Positions 4,958 through 28,765 of a stretch of DNA of 34,989 bases are shown here, in pieces. The stretch lies in IMG/VR virus record IMGVR_UViG_3300014499_000016, positions 1 to 34,989 of that record. One strand, given 5' to 3'. The notes beneath the pieces were generated by a model. The model saw only the letters and a list, made by a program, of their open reading frames with translations. It was not told where the DNA came from and ran no database searches. Within the stretch, counting starts at the first letter, position 1. Each line of letters starts with the position of its first letter. A program made the position numbers and the translations under genes. This DNA is from a virus.

Positions 4958-6052
4958 GTGCCATTTATTCATCCGAAAGGTTCGCCAACGTCGCGTATTT
5001 GGGTAGTAGTAGATGCTCCGTTGTCTACTGATATAGCAAAGGGATTTCTCTTCTCAGGTGGTCTTGGTTATGTTTTTGATAAGATGATGATGGATGCTGG
5101 AATTGGGGATTATTATGTAGTCTGCCGGCGACCAAATACAGATGTGCCAGAAGCTTTTCATATCATAGAGAATGAGCTTAATCAGTATAAGCCTCCTTTT
5201 ATAATTGCAATAGGAGCTACTGGCTCTTTCTTTTGTGAAGCTTTAAAACCGAATAATAAGCATAAAAGTTATGTAACTCAGCTTGGGAAGTATGTAGGCT
5301 CGTTACTTAAAGCCTCGTATAAGTCTCTGAACTTCGAGCATTATATAATGCCTATGTATGATGTATCGAAGTTTGTACAAGGTTGGGCAGAGAGAAATAT
5401 TACTACTTATTTTGATATGCAGAAATTAAGAGAAGAGTACACATACTGGAGAATTCATGGAAAACTTCAAGAGTTACCACAGAGAGAACTTTTGTACAAG
5501 GATATGGACTTAGATAATTTACTTTTATTGTTTAGAAGATTTAAACAATCTAAGCTTATCTCTGTTGATATTGAGACTTGTTATCCTAAGGGAGATTCTG
5601 TTTTTAAGCCTCATCCTGGGTATCCAATTACAATAGGTATTGCAGATTCTCCAAGTTTTGGAATTTCTTTTAATCTATTTCGTGAGTCACCTAGAGAAAC
5701 TGTTATTCTTTGGAGAGAGTTAAATGAAGTATTTAGAAGCGTACCCAATCTCGGTCAAAATTATTTTAATTTTGACGCACATTTCCTTAATAGCTTGGGG
5801 TTTGATATTGATTTACGAACTATTCAAGATACTCTTATCAGGCATCATGTCTTGTGGCCTGAGCTTCCTCATAAATTACAGTTTATGACGAGGCAGTATA
5901 CAAGAGAGCCTTATTATAAGGATGAAGGTCATGCTTGGAATTTGAAGAGTATGAATAAGTTAAGAAGGTATAATTGTTTGGATGTTTGTGTCACGTATGA
6001 GATTTATCTTCAGCAAGAGGAAGAATTTAATGAGAGGAAGTATTTGAGATGA
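4958..6052 (+). CDS. DNA polymerase I-type, N-terminal half: UDG-like domain plus 3'-5' exonuclease
   Basis: The 364-residue product is the proofreading half of a family A phage polymerase. Residues about 12-170 resemble the uracil-DNA-glycosylase-like domain found at the front of some phage polymerases (RIWVVVDAP, FIIAIGATGSFF). Residues about 195-355 are a DnaQ/PolA exonuclease: Exo I D204-I-E206 (ISVDIETC), Exo II N268 to D273 (NYFNFD), Exo III Y338 to D342 (YNCLD). The protein ends just after Exo III, and the polymerase domain is encoded separately at 7970-9445. It starts with GTG after AAAAAGGATAATTAA, 23 bases past a terminator hairpin. Its stop overlaps the next ATG (ATGA). The split falls at the domain boundary, so both parts may still assemble. 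Confidence 0.85.
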   Translation: MPFIHPKGSPTSRIWVVVDAPLSTDIAKGFLFSGGLGYVFDKMMMDAGIGDYYVVCRRPNTDVPEAFHIIENELNQYKPPFIIAIGATGSFFCEALKPNNKHKSYVTQLGKYVGSLLKASYKSLNFEHYIMPMYDVSKFVQGWAERNITTYFDMQKLREEYTYWRIHGKLQELPQRELLYKDMDLDNLLLLFRRFKQSKLISVDIETCYPKGDSVFKPHPGYPITIGIADSPSFGISFNLFRESPRETVILWRELNEVFRSVPNLGQNYFNFDAHFLNSLGFDIDLRTIQDTLIRHHVLWPELPHKLQFMTRQYTREPYYKDEGHAWNLKSMNKLRRYNCLDVCVTYEIYLQQEEEFNERKYLR

Positions 6053-6333
6053 GTAAAAGTCAGGAATCAATGAGGCGGGAGTATATAGGAAAGCCTGGAT
6101 GTTCGTATTGCGGTCCTGTGTGCTACGGCGGCGCAGCGCATAACGCGAGAGTAGAAGATAGTACTAAGAAAACCACGCCGGAGCCAGTAGCTCTTACACT
6201 GAGGGAACGGATTGAAAGGCACGTAGCCAATGGGCATGGTTACAGAGATGTGTACCATAATGCCGTTCAAGAAACTACTGCTCGCATTATGAGTGAACTA
6301 GAACTCGCCGCCGAGCGGAAGGAGCAGCCATGA
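6049..6333 (+). CDS. Hypothetical protein at the left edge of the island
   Basis: This is a 94-residue protein with no recognised family. The start ATG overlaps the stop of the exonuclease gene, and its own stop overlaps the next start, both as ATGA. A cysteine cluster (GKPGCSYCGPVC, residues about 15-26) could bind a metal. The second half is helical and charged (LTLRERIERHVANGHGYRD, then MSELELAAERKEQP). The ATG at 6070 is an alternative start without such overlap. The composition becomes GC-rich partway through this gene, so it may straddle the insertion junction. Confidence 0.5.
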   Translation: MSKSQESMRREYIGKPGCSYCGPVCYGGAAHNARVEDSTKKTTPEPVALTLRERIERHVANGHGYRDVYHNAVQETTARIMSELELAAERKEQP

Positions 6334-6650
6334 GTGAGCAAAAGCACATCAACAAATACGAAGCACCGACGCTCTATAACGAAGCAGGCTCTCCACTGAT
6401 TGCAAGTCGCGGCTTCGAGGTAGTCAAGTACGAAGAACACCGCGCAGCCGTCGAGAAGCTAATAGCCGAGAACGACAGAATCTCTCACGCTCTTAGCAAT
6501 GCTGATAATCGTAATAATGAGATGGAGGCGCTGCTGAGGGAAATAATTGTGGATTACGACGAGCGCAATCGTGCGTGGCCAAGTATGCCAGATCGACAGC
6601 ACCGCGTTCGCGTTATAGAAAATGCGCGACAAGCATTGGAGGGGAAATGA
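6330..6650 (+). CDS. Hypothetical coiled-coil phage protein
   Basis: This 106-residue protein has a central heptad-like helix (HRAAVEKLIAENDRISHAL and NNEMEALLREIIVDYDE), the kind of small accessory protein often found in the early regions of temperate phages. No catalytic motif is visible. It is joined by ATGA overlaps to the genes on both sides, and has GGAAGGAGC upstream of its ATG. The function is unknown. Confidence 0.55.
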   Translation: MSEQKHINKYEAPTLYNEAGSPLIASRGFEVVKYEEHRAAVEKLIAENDRISHALSNADNRNNEMEALLREIIVDYDERNRAWPSMPDRQHRVRVIENARQALEGK

Positions 6651-6916
6651 GCGACACGCAAAAACATCCGTTACTGAAGCATCTCGAAGGGCAAGCCTAT
6701 GTGTCCCTACTAAAACACGCTGAGAAATGCGACACAGATATTGACTATGACTGGGATAAGTTATCAAGAGATCGCCGCCATGCTGTAAACGCCGCATTAG
6801 ATTTGAAAGATTGTATTGAGCACATCACTAAACTAGAGGCCGAGAACCTGCAACTGCGCGAGGAGACAACGCGGCGCGTTGCACACGCCCTTTACGCCTT
6901 ACGCCCAGCACGTTGA
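6647..6916 (+). CDS. Hypothetical coiled-coil protein
   Basis: This is an 89-residue product. I chose the ATG at 6647 because it follows GGAGGGGAA and overlaps the preceding stop (ATGA). The first part is polar and helical; residues about 60-85 form a short leucine-zipper-like stretch (HITKLEAENLQLREETTRR). The last residues are encoded by DNA that in another frame matches a tyrosine recombinase. The C-terminus may therefore have been created when the recombinase remnant was joined on. No function is recognised. Confidence 0.5.
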   Translation: MSDTQKHPLLKHLEGQAYVSLLKHAEKCDTDIDYDWDKLSRDRRHAVNAALDLKDCIEHITKLEAENLQLREETTRRVAHALYALRPAR

Positions 6917-7026
6917 ATCGGGCGCTCAAGCGTATCCCTGTGAAGATTGAGCACTTTACGGTTCACGATCTGCGCAGGACAGCGGCCACACCCTGGTTCA
7001 CATCTCGGACAAGCGCGATCCAGTAA
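6898..7026 (+). pseudogene. Tyrosine recombinase (integrase) remnant
   Basis: In frame 1 this stretch reads LTPSTLNRALKR, then KIEHFTVHDLRRTAAT, which is the box II region (His-x-Leu-Arg-Arg-Thr) of tyrosine integrases. The homology stops abruptly after RRTAAT, and a stop codon follows at 7024. The upstream catalytic Arg/Lys part and the C-terminal Tyr are absent, and there is no start codon with a ribosome binding site. It is a truncated gene fragment and marks recombination of the island. The 7027-7102 stretch shows no recognisable coding content. Confidence 0.7.
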
Positions 7027-7102
7027 GGATCGATGCCAAGGCGGCGTTTGGGGCAACAACTTTAGCGGGGATACTGGAGTAGGAATCGGTCAGGAGAATA
7101 GC

Positions 7103-7621
7103 ATGGGTTGCGACATCCACAGTTTCGCAGAAGTACGCCGTGATGGGAAATGGGAGCAGAGCGGAGCGGTATTCCCGCTGGATGAGTTTGGCCAGGGATG
7201 GGAGAAACGAAGTCACACAGAACATCCGTTCGATTGGCGCAGTTACGGCTTGTTTGGGTTTCTCGCCAATGTCCGCAACTACTCCTGCGCTCCCTGCATT
7301 CAGGAACCCACTTACGAACTCCCGTTCGACGTTTCGGATAAAGTGCGAGAGGAGTTTGAAGGTTCAGATTGGCATTCAATCAACGTCCTCACACTCAAGC
7401 AATTGCTCGATTACGATTATGAGCAAACGTTTTGGGACCGTCGAGTTACTAAAGAAGTGCGCCCCGGGTACTTTGATGGGGCGGCATTGGCCGAAGAAGG
7501 TGAAGGAGAGACCAAAAAACTTCGGGACTTTCTTGGACTCGATTTTTTCCGCGATTTGGATGTGCTTAATTCCCTTGGCGATCCAGAAAATGTGCGCATT
7601 ATCTTTGCTTTTGACAATTAA
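7103..7621 (+). CDS. MGCDIH-family conserved hypothetical protein
   Basis: The 172-residue protein starts with MGCDIHSFAEVRRDGKW, a hallmark of a conserved family of hypothetical proteins I recall from phages and bacteria. Other shared features are RSYGLFGFLANVRN, LPFDVSDKVREE and DWHSINVLTLKQLLDYD. The function is unknown; conserved Cys, Asp and His near the N-terminus could bind metal. The start was set at ATG 7103 because CAGGAGA lies just upstream and the family begins here. It is GC-rich like the rest of the island and is free-standing after the integrase scar. Confidence 0.75.
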   Translation: MGCDIHSFAEVRRDGKWEQSGAVFPLDEFGQGWEKRSHTEHPFDWRSYGLFGFLANVRNYSCAPCIQEPTYELPFDVSDKVREEFEGSDWHSINVLTLKQLLDYDYEQTFWDRRVTKEVRPGYFDGAALAEEGEGETKKLRDFLGLDFFRDLDVLNSLGDPENVRIIFAFDN

Positions 7622-7700
7622 CCTCGTAAGGCCAAGAGCACTTGCGCTCCCCAGCCAATATCCGACAACCACAACCACTAACCCACAAAGGACAATCACA

Positions 7701-7778
7701 ATGCCAAGTGAGAACCTGATTACGCCCGACTCCCGCGCCGCAGCAAGCGCGACAGTAACCACAAAGGAGAATAAATAA
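7701..7778 (+). CDS. Possible 25-residue micro-ORF
   Basis: An ATG at 7701 preceded by AAAGGAC opens a 25-codon frame that ends immediately before the ATG of the next gene, with AAAGGAG near its end serving that gene. The peptide is Ala/Thr/Ser-rich (SRAAASATVTTKENK). It may be a leader for coupling, the end of a lost gene, or chance. Weakly supported. Confidence 0.3.
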   Translation: MPSENLITPDSRAAASATVTTKENK

Positions 7779-7967
7779 ATGATCTTATGCCAAGCAATAA
7801 TCTGGCTTACTGATAAATCTAACACTTACTGTATGCGTGAAATGGGACATAAAGGGAAGTGCTCGCCTGAGCCAGATAAGAAACCTACAACTCTTGGAGA
7901 GTTAACTCCAGAACAACAGAAAGAAGTTTTATCTCGTACTCATATTGGCTATGGAACTAAGGGTTAA
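7779..7967 (+). CDS. Small Cys/His protein, zinc-knuckle-like
   Basis: This is a 62-residue protein with C4, C18, H24 and C29 (YCMREMGHKGKCS), a C..C-x5-H-x4-C spacing that could hold one zinc. The rest is polar and ends two bases before the polymerase start. Base usage is AT-rich like the phage backbone, so the island ends just before it. An AAAGGAG site precedes the ATG. It could be an old neighbour of the polymerase. Function unknown. Confidence 0.55.
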   Translation: MILCQAIIWLTDKSNTYCMREMGHKGKCSPEPDKKPTTLGELTPEQQKEVLSRTHIGYGTKG

Positions 7968-7969
7968 GA

Positions 7970-9445
7970 ATGACTAATCGTATATCCTCTTCCTATCTTC
8001 ATCAACTTCAACGTGTCTACTATAATATAGGAGATAGAGGAATTCGTGTTGCTATGCTTCGTGTCGAGGCGAATAAATTAAAGATCAAAACCTTGATAAA
8101 TGAGCAACTTGAAATAGCCTCTAAACAATGGAGTTGCGTAGTCTATGTCGGAGCAGCTAATAAGCCTGCTGATGATAAGACCTCTGTTAATCTAAACTCT
8201 ACGCAAGGTGAGAGAGCACTTCTTTCTAAGCTCAAAGAGCTAGGATATAAGATTCCCTCTATTAATAAGAAAAACACAGATAGAGAGTATGAGTCTAAAT
8301 TCAGTACAGGAGAGCTTGCACTCCAGAAAATGCTTGTTGAAAATCAGTTTAACTATCCCGCAGGTGATCCAGCGATTCGCGCCATTCTTAAAGTTCGGGA
8401 ACTTGGAAAAATTTCCTCTGTATATCTTAATTCCAGACTTCGGTATACAAATAACGAAGCTTTCTTTTTATCTGTATATAACGTCGCAGGAACACTTACA
8501 GGAAGAAGAACATCTCGCAAGCATATCTTTGGATTTGGGAATAATTCTCAGAATTTCCCGCATCACTCTAGTAGTGCTAGATACTTCAGAGAGTGTCTTA
8601 TTCCCAGAGAAGGTAATATCTTCCTAATGTGCGATCAGATGCAAGCTGAAGAGTGGCCTGTATCTGCGCTTTCTTCTAATATGACTGCATTAGAAGAGTT
8701 AAAAACAGGAGTAGATAGACATTCTAAACTTGCTTCTGCTGTATTTTCTGAGTATATCCCAGCTAAGTCCTCTCCTGATTGGGATAAAGCAAAGCATGAG
8801 ATGAAGCGTTATCTGGGAAAAAAGATTAAGCATGCTCGTAATTATGGAATGAAGAAAAAAAGAATGGCTGAATCTCTTGCTCAAGAAGGGTTTGCAGTAT
8901 CGGAGCAGCTGTGTGAGATTTTACTTAATAAAGCCAGAGAAGTTGACCCTACTGTTGACTCTGTTTTTCATGCTTATATTCAAGAGCAGTTAAGTAACTT
9001 TCATATGCTAAAGACTCCATTTGGAATGGAGAGAATGTTCTTAGGAGCGCGTCCTAATGCTGACAATAGTACATTTTTTAACAAGGCATATTCTTATATT
9101 CCCCAATCTGTTGTGGGGTGTAATACTGGTTTTGCTGTTTTTGAGTTGGAAGAGGATTATCCAGAAGAGGAGAGACAAATTGTACAAGAAGGACATGACT
9201 CAATCGTGCAAGATATACGAGCGGAACCGGAGAATATTCTTAGGTATATCGAAAGAACCGTGAAGGCTTTTAACAGAGAGATTGAGTTTCATAATGGGAT
9301 TAGGATTAATATTCCTATTGAATTTGAATTAGGGTTTGACTTTCAGACAACTGTCACACTTGAGTCCTTGACTCTTGAAGGAATAAAAATAGCTCTTGAT
9401 AAATTGAAAGTTGAGAGAGAGAAAATTGGCCAGACAACTTTTTAA
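7970..9445 (+). CDS. DNA polymerase I-type, C-terminal polymerase half
   Basis: The 491 residues hold the family A polymerase domain without an exonuclease. The start (HQLQRVYYNIGDRGIRV) is the usual beginning of the thumb. TGRRTS and NSQNFPH match the TGRxSS..PNxQN region. Motif A is MCDQMQAEEW with catalytic D222, Q and Glu conserved. Motif B is KHARNYGMKKKRM (N291-Y292-G293), with Tyr where many bacterial polymerases have Phe. Motif C is EGHDSIV: D410 is kept but the usual Glu is Ser. It should copy the phage genome with the exonuclease supplied by the product of 4958-6052. The start is ATG 7970, three bases from the preceding stop. It overlaps the next gene by about 20 bases. Confidence 0.87.
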   Translation: MTNRISSSYLHQLQRVYYNIGDRGIRVAMLRVEANKLKIKTLINEQLEIASKQWSCVVYVGAANKPADDKTSVNLNSTQGERALLSKLKELGYKIPSINKKNTDREYESKFSTGELALQKMLVENQFNYPAGDPAIRAILKVRELGKISSVYLNSRLRYTNNEAFFLSVYNVAGTLTGRRTSRKHIFGFGNNSQNFPHHSSSARYFRECLIPREGNIFLMCDQMQAEEWPVSALSSNMTALEELKTGVDRHSKLASAVFSEYIPAKSSPDWDKAKHEMKRYLGKKIKHARNYGMKKKRMAESLAQEGFAVSEQLCEILLNKAREVDPTVDSVFHAYIQEQLSNFHMLKTPFGMERMFLGARPNADNSTFFNKAYSYIPQSVVGCNTGFAVFELEEDYPEEERQIVQEGHDSIVQDIRAEPENILRYIERTVKAFNREIEFHNGIRINIPIEFELGFDFQTTVTLESLTLEGIKIALDKLKVEREKIGQTTF

Positions 9446-10685
9446 ACCGTGGTATGCCTCATTTGTCGAATGTTGTGAACCGCATACCGAAGCTCCGAGA
9501 CAGTATCTACTTTGGAGTGCTATTAGTGTGCTTGCTGGAGTTCTAAAGAATGATGTTTTTCTAAAGCGGGGATTGTACACACTTTATCCTAATCAGTTTA
9601 TTATCTTAACTGGACCGCCTGGAATTGGAAAAGGAACAGCGATTAATTTTGCCTGGAGAATGACAAAGATTACTAATTCAAGATTAGCGAATGTTCTGAC
9701 TGATAGAGCTACTATTCCTGAGCTTCTTAGGCTTATCGCTAAAGGCTGGCCGACGGTGCCTAAGATAATCAATGGTCAAGCTCTTATGGCTACTATGGAG
9801 CATTCTTGTACTATCATAGCCTCTGAGCTTCAGACACTTCTAGCAAGTGGGACTAAGGATACTCTTCAGGTCTTTTGTCAATTATGGGATCAGCAGGAGT
9901 ATGAGAATAGGACAAAAAATCAGGGTACGGATATTATTAGGGATATGTGTGTTAATTTAATAGGAGGGACAGTTCCTGACTATATCAGAGGAATGGAACG
10001 AGATTTAGGGGCTGTTATTGCTGGGGGATATACTGCGAGATGTATTTTTATCCACGCAGATAAGAAGTCTAAGGAGCTTCCAGATGAACCTACGATTGAG
10101 AGTATTCCAAAATCTTTGGAGTTGTATAATAAGTTAAAAAATGATCTTTTATATATCGCAAGTAATGTGAAAGGTGAGTTTAAGATTTCTGAAGAGGCGA
10201 GGCTTATATTCTCTAATTATTACCCCGCAACCTCAGCATTACCTGATGATTCAGATGCTATGCTTAATTTTAAAGAGCGGATTAAGACTCATATTTTTAA
10301 GTTAAGTATGATATTAAGCGCAGCAAGGAAAGATTCACTTATTATAGAAGGTCAGGATATAAGAGATGCGATCTTTCTCATAACCTCCGTTAGACGGCAG
10401 CTTGATAAGGTCTTCCGTGGGATAGGGTCTTCTCAGTTAGCTGAACCTACGGCTAAGGTACAGTCAATTATCGAAAGATATGGGATGTGCACTAAGCTAC
10501 AATTAATTCAATCTACGCATAGGCACTTTGATCCTGCTGTCTTAGACAGAGTGCTTTATGTACTCGAAACAATAGGATTTTTAACAATTCAAAAAAGAGG
10601 CGGTAAGATATACTACGTCCAGATTCCTAAAGGTAATCAAGGAATGGGTCTTGGTTCAGTTTCTAAATCAGTAAATATTCCATAA
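9426..10685 (+). CDS. DUF3987-like phage helicase/primase-type ATPase
   Basis: This is a protein of about 419 residues. The N-terminus (YASFVECCEPHTEAPRQYLLW) and P-loop GPPGIGKGT (residues 63-71 from TTG 9426) match DUF3987-type phage proteins, which often stand in for replicative helicase or primase-helicase. The motor is followed by a helical region, and the C-terminus (about residues 345-405) looks like a winged helix (AKVQSIIERYG, DPAVLDRVLYVLETIGFLT). I prefer TTG 9426, spaced after GAGAGAGAAAA; TTG 9411 is an in-frame alternative giving 424 residues. It overlaps the polymerase gene, consistent with a shared role at the replication fork. Confidence 0.65.
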   Translation: MARQLFKPWYASFVECCEPHTEAPRQYLLWSAISVLAGVLKNDVFLKRGLYTLYPNQFIILTGPPGIGKGTAINFAWRMTKITNSRLANVLTDRATIPELLRLIAKGWPTVPKIINGQALMATMEHSCTIIASELQTLLASGTKDTLQVFCQLWDQQEYENRTKNQGTDIIRDMCVNLIGGTVPDYIRGMERDLGAVIAGGYTARCIFIHADKKSKELPDEPTIESIPKSLELYNKLKNDLLYIASNVKGEFKISEEARLIFSNYYPATSALPDDSDAMLNFKERIKTHIFKLSMILSAARKDSLIIEGQDIRDAIFLITSVRRQLDKVFRGIGSSQLAEPTAKVQSIIERYGMCTKLQLIQSTHRHFDPAVLDRVLYVLETIGFLTIQKRGGKIYYVQIPKGNQGMGLGSVSKSVNIP

Positions 10686-10695
10686 GGAGTTTTAA

Positions 10696-11337
10696 ATGTC
10701 AGAGACAACACAACAAAAAGGTGCGGTAGAGTTAGTCGAGCGTGGTTTTCTAGCTCGTCAAGAAGAAACGCAGAATATCATTGTACGAGATGATGGAACT
10801 AATACGGCTTCTATTCCAGGTTTTCCTTATATCTTCGAGGCTATGGGAGATAAGATTCTCGTGGCCGTGGATGTTTATAAGAGTGGTTATGAATGTAAAG
10901 AATGTAAGGGAACTGGGAAGATTACATCACATTGTGCTTGTGAGGATAGTGGCCGGCCAGGTTATAAGTATGTAGAACCAGCAAATGACGTACAGAAAGA
11001 TATGAAATGTCCTGAGTGTCTTGGAGATTTTATCTCTAAAAGAGTAGATAAAGAGTGCTCTGAATGTAAAGGTAAAGGTGCTCTTATCTGGATTCCAGAT
11101 CAGTCTAAATCCATGCCTACTACAGGTGTGATAGTATCAGTAGGATCAGAGGTAAAGAATCTTAGGTTAAAGAATCATTCTCGTGTACTCTTTGGTGCTT
11201 ATACAGGAGTGATGATTCCAACTAAGGCTCCTGGGGTTGTGTTCAAAGTTCTTCGTGATATTGAAGTTCTTTGTACAATTCAAGGAGGGGAAGACATGGC
11301 GGTATTTGACTTTGTAGTAACAGATAAGGAGCTTTAA
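10696..11337 (+). CDS. GroES-like co-chaperonin with inserted DnaJ-type zinc finger
   Basis: This 213-residue protein has GroES strands at both ends: GDKILVAV (51-58), then TGVIVSVGS (143-151), RVLFGAYTGVMI (163-174) and FKVLRDIEVLCTI (183-195). Between the first strand and the rest is a cysteine-rich block of about 65 residues with four DnaJ-like repeats: C67-C70 (CKECKGTG), HCAC at 79-82, C105-C108 (CPECLGD), and C121-C124 (CSECKGKG). The block ends where GroES has its mobile loop; ALIWIPDQ (129-136) would be the GroEL-binding hydrophobic segment. An N-terminal extension of 45 residues precedes the fold. It could cap host GroEL with altered client handling during capsid or tail folding. AAGGAG precedes the ATG. 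Confidence 0.8.
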   Translation: MSETTQQKGAVELVERGFLARQEETQNIIVRDDGTNTASIPGFPYIFEAMGDKILVAVDVYKSGYECKECKGTGKITSHCACEDSGRPGYKYVEPANDVQKDMKCPECLGDFISKRVDKECSECKGKGALIWIPDQSKSMPTTGVIVSVGSEVKNLRLKNHSRVLFGAYTGVMIPTKAPGVVFKVLRDIEVLCTIQGGEDMAVFDFVVTDKEL

Positions 11338-11338
11338 G

Positions 11339-11620
11339 ATGAAAAGAATTATATTTCTTACTTTATTCTTCTGTGCGTTAGCTATTACCTACGCTCAGAT
11401 TCAACTTCCACCACGTTTAAGCACAGCAGATGTTTTTACTATCCAATCACAGCTTAGGGTTATCCAAGAAGCAAAGGATAAGATCGGCACGGTAATTAGA
11501 GAGTGGAATCAGGCTCATCCAGGGTATAGGATAAATCCTCAGACGTATCAAGTAGAAGCTACTTCAAAGCCTTCAAAAGGTGTTGTAAAACCAACGGGGA
11601 TAGATAAGCAAGGAAAGTAA
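11339..11620 (+). CDS. Small secreted protein with Sec signal peptide
   Basis: The 93-residue product starts with MKRIIFLTLFFCALAITYAQ, a typical signal peptide with basic start, hydrophobic core and a predicted cut after TYA. The mature part of about 74 residues is helical then polar (VFTIQSQLRVIQEAKDKIG, and a Lys/Pro-rich tail). It begins one base after the chaperone stop and is the last gene before the convergent terminator. It would act in the periplasm or outside. Role unknown; a lysis or envelope-modifying part is possible but unsupported. Confidence 0.65.
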   Translation: MKRIIFLTLFFCALAITYAQIQLPPRLSTADVFTIQSQLRVIQEAKDKIGTVIREWNQAHPGYRINPQTYQVEATSKPSKGVVKPTGIDKQGK

Positions 11621-11633
11621 AAGAGGATAAAAG

Positions 11634-11662
11634 AAAAGGCTCCCAAGAATAGGGAGCCTTTT
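11634..11662. terminator. Bidirectional terminator between convergent operons
   Basis: AAAAGGCTCCC (11634-11644) and GGGAGCCTTTT (11652-11662) form an 11-bp stem around a 7-base loop. T-runs follow on both strands (TTTTTATT on plus, TTTTCTTTT on minus). It separates the early plus operon from the late minus operon. Confidence 0.9.
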
Positions 11663-11682: not shown

Positions 11683-13056
11683 CTAAGTAGTCGGCCAGCA
11701 GATGTAATTATACACGTCTGAAGTACCTACTGAATTTGTAATAGTAATACTTGATGATGATACAGTAGCTACCATAGTAGACATATGAGCTGGGGTTGTG
11801 GTATCGAAGTAGGTGCAGACAGGAGCATGGCTAAGACTTGCAAGACTATGACTTCCTGTTCCGCTTGAGAGTGTGATAGTTCCTTGATTGTTTGAGTTTG
11901 CATTAGTACCAGTTTGAATAAGAGGTGTAGCTATTCCCCCGTCATCAGAAATACCACTGGTAACTGTAAGACCCTGAAAATCAGTCTCATTCTCGAAAGT
12001 GAATATTCCATTTGTACAACCAATCCATGCAACTTCATTTCCATTGGTGAAAAAGTTTACTGTTCCTATACCGCCTTGTGTGTTTACGCAGGAGGCATTA
12101 TTTTGAGTTCCTAGGTCAAAACCAATACTTGAAGCAAGATAGGTATTATCTGCTCCTGATAGAGGATTAGTCCCAGCGGCTGAGCCAGGAATGCCTATGA
12201 TTATAGCTTGAGAGAGGTCATCTTCCATACTAACTTCAGAAGCGCTATCATCAGAGTTAGAAAGGATAGTTTCAATCTCAGCAGAAGAAGAGCCCAGTGC
12301 TGCATCTATAACAGTTAAAATAGCATTTCCTGATCCTACACTCATTTCAACAGCAGCGCCACCTATATTAACCTGAAAATCCTCAGTACTTGTCAATGAA
12401 GTTCCATTATCACATATAGGAGAGGCTGTTAGAGTTGTAGTATTCGTAACTGCTTCTGGAATACATCCTACAACTACTGAGCCAGTAAAACTTCCAGCTC
12501 CAGCACAACTCCAAGTGCTACCATTATAATTCCGAGTGCAAGGGATTACGTTATTATAATAAGTCGCACCTGGATTTAGATTAGAGACCTCAACATCAGC
12601 ATAGCCAAAATTCCCAGCTATTCCTGGAAATCTAGGAGCTGTTATAGCTGCGTTTATAAGTGATGATATATCTTGAGTTCCTCCTGTAGCAGTAAAGAAG
12701 ACTTGAGGAGAGCAGCTTGAGTTTGAAGTATCTGAACAGACGGAGATGAACCATGAAGTTCCAGAGGGGGTTATCATATTCGTGGTATACACCGAGGTAG
12801 ATAACTGTCCTGAGCTATTCAGATTACCACTTTGAAAAGCTATCGTAGGATTAAGTGGTGCTCCGTTTATATAATAACAAGAGAGCTGAGTACAGTTATG
12901 TCCGAAGACTAGGCTAAGCTGATAATGAGCATTAGCCCAAGCAGTGCTATCTGAATCAGTCACAGTAGCGGTTATAGTAGTCATCTGGGCAAGAGCGTGA
13001 ACACTTCCTAAGAGAAGAAAGTATCCGAGGATAGAGAGTAGTTTTTTCATTTTCAT
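11683..13056 (-). CDS. Secreted fibre-like protein A (Sec signal peptide)
   Basis: This is a 457-residue protein. Residues 1-24 form a signal peptide ending LALAQ. Residues about 25-190 form a beta-rich domain paralogous to that of the next gene (shared features: TATVTDSDSTAW, YINGAPLNP, ITPSGTSWF, FTATGG, and paired Cys). The rest is Ser/Thr/Gly-rich beta structure with motifs such as DFQGLTVTSGISD and a C-terminal piece GTITLSSGTGSHSLASLSHA. This is similar in style to fibre or surface proteins. It sits at the distal end of the late operon, where tail fibres usually are. A signal peptide is unusual for a virion protein, so it may be exported to the host surface. The start ATG follows AAAGGAG. 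Confidence 0.65.
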   Translation of the reverse strand: MKMKKLLSILGYFLLLGSVHALAQMTTITATVTDSDSTAWANAHYQLSLVFGHNCTQLSCYYINGAPLNPTIAFQSGNLNSSGQLSTSVYTTNMITPSGTSWFISVCSDTSNSSCSPQVFFTATGGTQDISSLINAAITAPRFPGIAGNFGYADVEVSNLNPGATYYNNVIPCTRNYNGSTWSCAGAGSFTGSVVVGCIPEAVTNTTTLTASPICDNGTSLTSTEDFQVNIGGAAVEMSVGSGNAILTVIDAALGSSSAEIETILSNSDDSASEVSMEDDLSQAIIIGIPGSAAGTNPLSGADNTYLASSIGFDLGTQNNASCVNTQGGIGTVNFFTNGNEVAWIGCTNGIFTFENETDFQGLTVTSGISDDGGIATPLIQTGTNANSNNQGTITLSSGTGSHSLASLSHAPVCTYFDTTTPAHMSTMVATVSSSSITITNSVGTSDVYNYICWPTT

Positions 13057-13077: not shown

Positions 13078-14508
13078 TTATAACCACTTACAAGCTGAAC
13101 CTTGAATTATAGTCAGAGCATCAGAAGCATTTGCGGTACTTCCATAGATTGTTACGATTGCAGCATTTGTGCTTGTTTGCATGTTAAACCATATATGCAC
13201 GTGATAGTAATTAGCAGATCCAGAAGTGGCTGGAGTTACTGTTGCTACTGTAATTACTGTATTATCATTTATCTCTGGCCCCCATTCTGTGTTTGCAGTA
13301 GTGCTTGTCCAGAGATTAGCGCCGTATGTTATATAGGAAGTGTTAGCACTTACTCCGAGTCCTATGTGAATTCCCGCGGCGGCTGTTGCTTGATAATAAC
13401 CAAGATCACAAGTTCCACGCACTAAGGTAGAACTGGGAACAGAGGGCAAGGCTAATATATCTGTGTAACTTGTATTAACTGTTGTAATTGTTAACGTAGA
13501 AGCTACTGAGACAACAGGAGAAGCTGAAACTGCCGAGACTGCTGTTGCTACAAAAGCTGTAGTAGCAATTTGTGTTGTATTTGTACTAGCTGCCGCTGTA
13601 GGAGATGTTGGAGTTCCTGTTAATGCGGGTGATACAAGTGGGGCAGCGCCAATAGTTCCGGGGCTGACTGTAACAGCCGCAGAGCCATTAAAAGTAGTTC
13701 CCGGAGAGGCTCCACCTGTTGTAGCAAAAGTTAAAGCATCAGTAGTGGTTCCTCCGCCTGCTGTAATAGTACACGTACTTCCAAGTACACAAGATTGTCC
13801 ATTTACAGTTGTAGAGTCGTATTGTAATGCTGCATTAGGAACAGGTCCAGCAGTTACGTTTAAAGTTGGTGTAGTCGCTGGATCAATTACTGTTGGAACT
13901 AACCAAGAAGGCCAACTACCAGATGGGGCATTGAAATATGTAACTGTACCAGGATTAGAACCTGAAGTAAGACAAGCCCAACTTGAACCTGAGTATCCTC
14001 GATAACAGTCCTGAGTTACATTGTAATAAATACTTCCAGGAGCTAGTTGAATAATAGCCTCTGTGTCGATGTAACCATAAGCTCCTATAGTAGCTCTATA
14101 GCGTGGAGCTTGAATTAGGCTATTGATAAGAGTAGAGAGATTCATAGAACTCCCTGTAGCTATAAAAGGAATATTAGCACAAGGAGCAGATGCATAAGGA
14201 CAGATATTAATTGTCCATGAGCTGCCGGCTGGAGTTATTACACTATTCTGATACACGGTAGCACTGAGGACTCCTGAGCCATTTAGACTTCCTGATTGCG
14301 TAGTAACAGAGGGAGAGAGTGGAACTCCGTTGATGTTATAATTATTAATATTCGGATTATTAAAATTTGGAACAAACTGTAAACGCCAGGGACCACTAAA
14401 CCACGTAGTCCCATCTGCGTCTATGACTGTAGCACTCAGAGTCGTATTCTGCGCGACTCCTATACTAGATAAGAGAGAGATAAAAGAAAGCAAAAGAATC
14501 TTTTTCAT
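13078..14508 (-). CDS. Secreted tail-fibre-like protein B (Sec signal peptide)
   Basis: The 476-residue protein opens with a signal peptide (MKKILLLSFISLLSSIGVAQ) and a beta-rich domain to about residue 185 paralogous to protein A. The middle contains the phage tail-fibre signature LTGTPTSPTAAASTNTTQIA (TTAFV next), preceded by FNGSAAVTVSPGTIGAA. This repeat is common in receptor-binding fibres. The C-terminal 150 residues are a distinct beta domain ending SACKWL. It should therefore be a receptor-binding or surface protein, but the signal peptide suggests export. It is TAATG-coupled to a micro-ORF upstream and has a GAGGAG site inside that ORF. Two paralogues in a row suggest duplication with diverged tips. 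Confidence 0.7.
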   Translation of the reverse strand: MKKILLLSFISLLSSIGVAQNTTLSATVIDADGTTWFSGPWRLQFVPNFNNPNINNYNINGVPLSPSVTTQSGSLNGSGVLSATVYQNSVITPAGSSWTINICPYASAPCANIPFIATGSSMNLSTLINSLIQAPRYRATIGAYGYIDTEAIIQLAPGSIYYNVTQDCYRGYSGSSWACLTSGSNPGTVTYFNAPSGSWPSWLVPTVIDPATTPTLNVTAGPVPNAALQYDSTTVNGQSCVLGSTCTITAGGGTTTDALTFATTGGASPGTTFNGSAAVTVSPGTIGAAPLVSPALTGTPTSPTAAASTNTTQIATTAFVATAVSAVSASPVVSVASTLTITTVNTSYTDILALPSVPSSTLVRGTCDLGYYQATAAAGIHIGLGVSANTSYITYGANLWTSTTANTEWGPEINDNTVITVATVTPATSGSANYYHVHIWFNMQTSTNAAIVTIYGSTANASDALTIIQGSACKWL

Positions 14509-27808: not shown

Positions 27809-28765
27809 CTACGGGCCATTCGATCCCCAGACACCCTGCCACCGAGTTGCTCCAGCACTCATTCTCAGTCTAATCTTCTGCTTCAGAGCATCAGAATCAA
27901 AATCATCATCAAAAGTAGTCTTAGGCTTTTCACGATGATATACTACAAGAGTCTGATCCTCTTTCTCAGCACTCATAAACCAAGCAGAAGCACTATTAAG
28001 CCATGGAATTTCCATGTGCTTATAATCCTCTGGCAGTAGAGAGTTAATCGTATTATCAGCAGTGTATGGCTTTCCACTCGATCCTAGAACCTCACGAACA
28101 AGGAATCTAAGCTCAGGAGGAGTAATCACATACTTCCAACGAAGACGAATTGGGAAGCCTTGATTATCAACCATTCTAGCTGCATGATTTGTAGCTAACT
28201 GAAGACCAGCTACGCTAAAATCAATATCAACAGAAGGTCGATTAGGCCACGTACCAGGAGCGTATATAACATTAGCAGCTCCCGGCGCTAGATTCGTAGC
28301 CGGAGTTCCGCCAAGTAAAGGATGCTCATCATAAAACAAAGGATTTCCATCTACTGTCTGAACATTAGAAGTAAATCCATTATTAAACGTATACCAAGCA
28401 ATCATCTCTTGAGTAAACGAGGCTGACCGCGCCAGAAGAACTGGCCCTTTCTTAACCAATCCATACTTATCATCATCCATTAGTTCCTTAGAAGTCCTAA
28501 TAGCCAATGAATAAGTAAGATGAATATAACGCTTTGACCCACCCTGGATCATCTCGTTATAAGCAGATGGGGAATTCTCAGGCTTTTCCTGAAGTGCAGA
28601 AAGCCCTGCCATTTCCATTTCCTGCTCATACTCATTATCTGACGTTTTTTCATGGAACACTTTTGGATAATCACTCATCTTCAACTGAGCATCCAGTGAA
28701 TCAAAGTATATCTTTGACTGTCCCAGAACCATAAGCTGTGGAAATTTTGCCCTAACCTGTGCCAT
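27809..28765 (-). CDS. Major capsid protein (HK97-fold, Mu gpT-like)
   Basis: This is a 318-residue protein. The N-terminal region (QLMVLGQSKIYFDSLD) and a helix-strand middle (SLAIRTSKELMDDDKYG, ARSASFTQEMIAWYTFNNG) match major head proteins of the Mu gpT/HK97 type. So do the loop DGNPLFYDEHPLLGG and the C-terminal FDSDALKQKIRLRMSAG with its final strand. It should be the shell subunit. AAAGGAGG before the ATG supports high translation. The scaffold and decoration candidates directly upstream and the portal further upstream agree. No protease domain is visible in it. Confidence 0.75.
   Translation of the reverse strand: MAQVRAKFPQLMVLGQSKIYFDSLDAQLKMSDYPKVFHEKTSDNEYEQEMEMAGLSALQEKPENSPSAYNEMIQGGSKRYIHLTYSLAIRTSKELMDDDKYGLVKKGPVLLARSASFTQEMIAWYTFNNGFTSNVQTVDGNPLFYDEHPLLGGTPATNLAPGAANVIYAPGTWPNRPSVDIDFSVAGLQLATNHAARMVDNQGFPIRLRWKYVITPPELRFLVREVLGSSGKPYTADNTINSLLPEDYKHMEIPWLNSASAWFMSAEKEDQTLVVYHREKPKTTFDDDFDSDALKQKIRLRMSAGATRWQGVWGSNGP

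Follow-up and report, generated by a model that had tools for sequence, protein, structure and literature searches.

Co-chaperonins are usually viewed as caps whose flexible loop is short, and in the zinc domain of DnaJ the cysteine motifs pair as 1 with 4 and 2 with 3. For the phage T4 co-chaperonin gp31, loops of 22 versus 16 residues, the absence of roof loops and a chamber that is 8% larger have been described (PMC6318259). According to PMC4428491, which cites Linke 2003, zinc centre I of DnaJ is needed for substrate binding and zinc centre II for the interaction with DnaK. Here we analyzed a stretch of viral DNA of 34,989 nt (in the following ‘the window’), in which one gene encodes a co-chaperonin-like protein, here named GroES-Zn, with a cysteine module inserted into its mobile loop. 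This architecture is described in no cultured phage record and in none of the open-access literature that we searched; a paper on soil viral chaperonins (PMC8390657) was considered as a precedent and set aside, as it treats GroEL-like proteins and not GroES. The gene, its parts and its direct neighbours in the window are as follows:

9411-10685, + strand: primase-like gene directly upstream of GroES-Zn (phrog_14296, E = 9e-43; same order in the clade relatives)
10684-10689, + strand: AAGGAG where the primase open reading frame ends, a Shine-Dalgarno-like site just ahead of the GroES-Zn ATG (direct reading)
10696-11337, + strand: GroES-Zn gene; its product (213 aa) is co-chaperonin-like and has a cysteine module inserted (open reading frame, profiles, fold)
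10828-10887, + strand: residues 45-64 (YIFEAMGDKILVAVDVYKSG), covering strand 1 of GroES and the mobile loop's N-terminal arm (AlphaFold strand 53-58; alignment)
10894-11079, + strand: inserted DnaJ-like cysteine module, residues 67-128
10894-10905, + strand: motif 1 (C67, C70), predicted to form the outer zinc site together with motif 4 (cysteines invariant in 54/54 relatives)
10933-10941, + strand: motif 2 (C80-x-C82), predicted to form the inner zinc site together with motif 3 (inner cysteines all-or-none in relatives)
10942-11007, + strand: motif 2-3 tip (hypervariability of the equivalent stretch was seen between near-identical relatives, not in the window itself)
11008-11019, + strand: motif 3 (C105, C108), predicted partner of motif 2 in the inner zinc site (inner cysteines all-or-none in relatives)
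11056-11067, + strand: motif 4 (C121, C124), predicted partner of motif 1 in the outer zinc site (cysteines invariant in 54/54 relatives)
11080-11118, + strand: putative GroEL-contact segment of the mobile loop, ALIWIPDQSKSMP, residues 129-141 (hhalign to GroES IIIPDTAKEKP)
11119-11283, + strand: GroES beta-barrel, residues 142-196, with the roof hairpin short or absent (profiles, AlphaFold, hhalign)
11339-11620, + strand: small exported-looking open reading frame after GroES-Zn (no PHROG match)
11634-11662, no strand assigned: hairpin resembling a terminator, with the replication operon on one side and the opposite-strand fibre genes on the other

RESULTS

The ends of the protein are GroES-like

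The first-pass annotation of this DNA had read both ends of the protein as GroES and the stretch between them as a DnaJ-type zinc finger, and had proposed structure prediction and profile searches as checks. For the ends, both agree with that reading. The Pfam model Cpn10 (PF00166) matched residues 123-194 at E = 4.3e-7 (30.3 bits, above the cut-off of 21.1) and 48 of 54 non-redundant relatives at E ≤ 0.01, and a profile of these 54 relatives matched solved GroES/Cpn20 at 1e-9 to 1e-13. Aligned by hhalign with one bacterial GroES, GroES-Zn reached a probability of 97.8% (E = 1e-12), with its IWIPD paired to the IIIPD of GroES; the hydrophobic segment preceding the proline is kept across most of the family. 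AlphaFold, run on all 213 residues as a monomer with the 54-member alignment, folded the ends as GroES (mean pLDDT 84.5, pTM 0.70), and a Foldseek search with the full model found GroES as best match (3.7e-5), followed by T4 gp31 (1g31, 1.8e-3) and gp31 on GroEL (2cgt, 0.024). The roof of the family is short, with a gap of about 9 residues compared to GroES. GroES-Zn is therefore best described as a predicted co-chaperonin lid, which is well supported by sequence, modelled fold and gene context.

A cysteine module is inserted into the mobile loop

Located in the N-terminal arm of the mobile loop, after strand 1 (GDKILVAVD...KSG) and before ALIWIPDQSK, the insert holds eight cysteines (C67, C70, C80, C82, C105, C108, C121 and C124). 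As the annotation had it, the cysteine pairs all fall within this one insert, according to profiles, AlphaFold/Foldseek and conservation in the 54 non-redundant relatives, and conservation across the 54 ruled out a chance cysteine pattern. Its count of four CxxCxGxG-like repeats held in part: motifs 1 (CKECKGTG) and 4 (CSECKGKG) are canonical and are the only ones that are, whereas motif 2 is CxC (C80-A-C82) instead of a CxxC at 79-82, and motif 3 (CPECLGD) is degenerate, without the second glycine. Four CxxC motifs are present in several relatives (e.g. L057, L072 and L077). The proposed search with the DnaJ_CXXCXGXG model (PF00684) likewise gave a divided result, as the model matched residues 67-128 of the window member at E = 0.0016, below its cut-off, but 29 of the 54 relatives at E ≤ 0.01. 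The family profile matched the solved BSD2 zinc chaperone at E = 0.007, and no J-domain was found by Pfam search in the 213 residues. Modelled in isolation the module reached a pLDDT of 74.3, with lambda Q and the zinc fingers of DnaJA2 and DNAJA3 as best folds, all at E > 0.6. The label ‘DnaJ-type’ is thus favoured by the motif layout, by the Pfam DnaJ/BSD2 matches in relatives and by an inner pair that is either complete or absent, but not by the fold comparison of the isolated module.

We observed that the outer cysteine pairs (motifs 1 and 4) are kept in all 54 non-redundant members. The inner region contains 4-5 cysteines in 46 of the 54 and none in the other 8, never 1-3. When the tree is built from the sequences with the module left out, one-zinc members turn up at scattered positions, and at least five changes are required by branches with good support. 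Since the inner motifs are kept or lost together and the outer ones are constant, the data fit two separate sites, 1+4 and 2+3, as in DnaJ. This is the pattern expected for two zinc sites, which we predict here by analogy with DnaJ. One of the one-zinc members (L012:3992-4540) carries a Trp/Arg-rich insertion (RWRRRIEAGWWQKFLWWLSNDSVYRRN) close to where GroES has its roof.

The module is conserved in a family of uncultured phages

Searching IMG/VR with the GroES-Zn protein alone returned no relatives. The first ones were reached via the neighbouring genes (DNA polymerase and primase), with GroES-Zn in the same place, and profiles built from them were used to scan IMG/VR; 101 relatives were found and 80 kept, of which 54 non-redundant members were analyzed. 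As one collecting pattern had held the first cysteine, the scans were repeated for each clade with cysteine-free patterns of the GroES half. These gave 30 loci, and the module was present in 25 of 25 examined (L110 is cut by its contig end), although distant zinc-less relatives may escape such scans. Twelve positions are invariant in the 54 members (D59, G64, E66, C67, C70, C121, C124, G126, G144, S148, G150 and G171), and the module segments span 42 to 91 residues. The design is conserved over a large uncharacterised family of uncultured phages. The zinc form was found in none of 50,697 records of cultured phages and not in the plasmids searched; a Bacteroides phage match, considered as a cultured relative, proved to be an ordinary 87-aa GroES. 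Among bacterial genomes the sole match of the zinc form, obtained with a narrow profile, was L015 (JARLJL010000016.1), a 47.7-kb contig binned as Sulfuriferula, which is likely a phage contig in the bin because its gene order is identical to that of clade A phages; alternatively it could be a host lead. In IMGVR_UViG_3300018013_000015 (L011/L013) the contig ends overlap by 123 bases within the GroES-Zn gene, and for this reason the record is probably circular or terminally redundant.

Pairwise dN/dS was 0-0.38 for the module and 0.04-0.19 for the barrel where estimable; the gene is under purifying selection. In two groups of relatives (L023/L024/L026/L027/L030/L034 and L033/L035) we noticed a hypervariable stretch between motifs 2 and 3 within nearly identical flanks. 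L023 and L027 share mostly 91-100% identity in the upstream 1.3 kb and 91-93% for the greater part of the barrel; at nt 391-480 of the GroES-Zn gene their identity is 58%. The differences between L033 and L035 are almost all located between motifs 2 and 3. Most simply, the tip would touch a variable partner, be swapped by recombination (cassette exchange), or both. When the tip was compared with the downstream fibre gene, phage pairs sharing one tip turned out to be clones.

Two clades differ in gene neighbourhood

The family tree splits into two clades, A and B, with 100/98 support. In clade A, which includes the window, GroES-Zn follows a split DNA polymerase and the primase and often faces exported-looking fibre genes in convergent orientation. 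In all 33 clade B loci it shares its strand with a terminase large subunit gene and lies 0-2 kb upstream of it (phrog_38 at 2e-24 to 7e-61 in the four loci scanned). The clade B gene thus sits in the packaging module, a neighbourhood that only suggests a gp31-type role in capsid protein folding. Neither the window nor any of 24 relative records (45-51 kb) yielded a Cpn60 (phage GroEL), and the same set contained at most one Cpn10 match per record.

Some further observations concern the window itself. With 35 kb compared to about 48 kb in relatives, the record is probably incomplete. Between the halves of the split DNA polymerase (4958-6052 and 7970-9445), the region 6000-8000 shows a GC content of up to 0.49, compared to 0.36-0.43 elsewhere, and many overlapping short open reading frames. 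The fibre-like proteins at 11683-13056 and 13078-14508 (both − strand) have Sec-signal-like starts (MKMKKLLSILGYFLLLGSVHALAQ; MKKILLLSFISLLSSIGVAQ), which seem unusual for phage fibres and are also present in relatives. A 318-aa protein encoded at 27809-28765 (− strand) matches families of head maturation proteases as well as of major head proteins and is a candidate client.

A J-domain match was present in 19 of 20 near-complete clade A records (E 5e-10 to 2e-5). All 12 of the fetched clade A J proteins (L127-L138) have an intact HPD; they comprise about 185-330 residues with a C-terminal J-domain and do not contain the four-motif zinc finger of DnaJ. In the two records where the distance was worked out, the J gene lies about 14-16 kb upstream of GroES-Zn. 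The window, which stops short of the region carrying the J gene in the compared relatives, has no J match. None was present in four near-complete clade B records either, and both the J gene and GroES-Zn are absent from three cultured phages with which the polymerase and primase are shared. A tie between loss of the inner site and the J gene was considered, and no association was found, as clade A members without the inner site keep the J gene.

DISCUSSION

We lean towards the view that GroES-Zn is a phage lid for host GroEL that folds virion proteins and carries its zinc module as a partner-contacting tip. The protein would probably assemble as a GroES-like heptamer and take the place of host GroES on host GroEL via the I-W-I-P segment of the mobile loop, aiding the folding of phage virion proteins as T4 gp31 does. 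Each mobile loop would then carry one DnaJ-class zinc module in its N-terminal arm. The outer site (motifs 1 and 4) would shut the insert at its base and hold the GroEL-contact segment in place, and the distal part (motifs 2 and 3 with the tip) would jut out as a variable partner-contacting tip. Its partner would most likely be a client protein, before or during capture. A client-binding lid had already been suggested in the first-pass annotation, and we infer that the hypervariable tip strengthens this idea.

A dedicated phage co-chaperonin with a partner-contacting zinc tip is, with modest confidence, also the best explanation of the data as a whole. Several lines point to it: the Cpn10 match and the GroES fold including gp31, the constant outer and all-or-none inner cysteines with the one-zinc form scattered on the tree, cysteine-free scans that gave only module-bearing members, the terminase neighbourhood of clade B, no Cpn60 and at most one Cpn10 in the window and the 24 relatives, low dN/dS in module and barrel, and differences between close relatives concentrated in the motif 2-3 stretch. 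The division of labour reported for the two DnaJ zinc centres (PMC4428491, citing Linke 2003) is also in line with it. However, the clade A gene sits in the replication operon, away from head genes, the fold matches of the isolated module are insignificant, and the distal half is repeatedly missing as a whole (8 of 54 members), which is unexpected if client capture needs this half. Moreover, variation driven by a host partner or by defence, or recombination, could explain the hypervariable tip instead of clients. A more far-reaching version, in which Hsp40-like capture takes place in a GroES cap, the tip sets the client and, in the clade paired with a J protein, the phage controls the handover of virion proteins from Hsp70 to GroEL, is put forward tentatively, and we give it perhaps one chance in four.

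Alternatively, the insert may be a spacer, i.e. a zinc-stiffened collar at the junction of lid and cage that lifts the dome and widens the cage for a large phage client. This would extend the principle of gp31 with its longer mobile loops and missing roof (PMC6318259), and the family roof is indeed short. We nevertheless regard it as unlikely: motifs 1 and 4 would join the ends of the insert, which should then hang off the loop and not lengthen it, and neither the hypervariable tip nor module segments of 42-91 residues would be explained. The J gene of clade A raises another option, which may coexist with the partner-contacting tip, namely a relay from Hsp70 to Hsp60 in which the module contacts DnaK or the phage J protein, like a DnaJ in two pieces. 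The frequent J match with intact HPD, the three cultured primase relatives lacking both genes and the DnaK interaction reported for zinc centre II (PMC4428491) would fit, but J matches are absent from the four near-complete clade B records and, within clade A, inner site and J gene do not track each other, so that we consider this relay still less likely than the spacer.

Slightly less probable again is a repurposed GroES fold that is no folding lid and either blocks host GroEL or makes lambda Q-like contacts with nucleic acid or RNA polymerase. The nearest fold of the isolated module is lambda Q (E = 0.63), phrog_127 (Q-like) matches GroES-Zn at 0.0017 and the clade A gene belongs to the replication operon. 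These matches are weak, though, and the likeness is of the general CxxCxGxG kind; furthermore, the strongest constraint lies on barrel and mobile loop, and the clade B gene is in the packaging module. Least probable is a module that governs lid docking in infection, either as a switch responding to redox state or zinc or as a weak thiol oxidoreductase, for although invariant CxxC pairs adjoin the GroEL-contact segment and the thiol-reductase activity of DnaJ depends on its zinc domain (PMC4428491), the conserved structural glycines suggest a stable fold, no link between the GroES-Zn gene and redox genes was found and a hypervariable tip is not predicted.

If GroES-Zn is a lid with a partner-contacting tip, a family with a predicted zinc module in the lid loop, one part of which varies sharply, would offer a direct handle on whether the lid selects its client, as well as a modular building block for studies of chaperonin specificity. 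Phages may in this way remodel protein folding in the host by a route that has gone unrecognised, and the conserved design suggests that they evolved a lid for the folding cage that may hold a partner protein as well.

Compared with known systems, GroES-Zn resembles T4 gp31 in its GroES fold (the 1g31 match), in being phage-encoded without a phage GroEL and in its missing or short roof, but gp31 has no cysteine module and its mobile loop is longer but simple (PMC6318259). Barrel and mobile-loop segment align with bacterial GroES/Cpn10 (PF00166; E = 1e-12), from which GroES-Zn differs by a mobile-loop insert of about 35-85 residues, a short roof and an extra N-terminal segment. With the DnaJ zinc domain (PF00684) and BSD2 (PF25436) most members share four CxxCxGxG-like motifs in one module, of which the inner two are lost or kept together. 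Unlike these proteins, GroES-Zn has neither a J-domain nor a peptide-binding domain and carries the module inside a GroES; motifs 2 and 3 are degenerate in the window, and some members have motifs 1 and 4 only. Helicobacter pylori HspA is likewise a co-chaperonin with an added metal-binding region, which is however a nickel-binding C-terminal extension and not a loop insert (PMC7824444). Finally, chloroplast Cpn20/Cpn23 gave the best PDB sequence matches and are also bigger than standard co-chaperonins, but they consist of tandem GroES domains with no zinc insert, whereas GroES-Zn places its predicted zinc module within the mobile loop.
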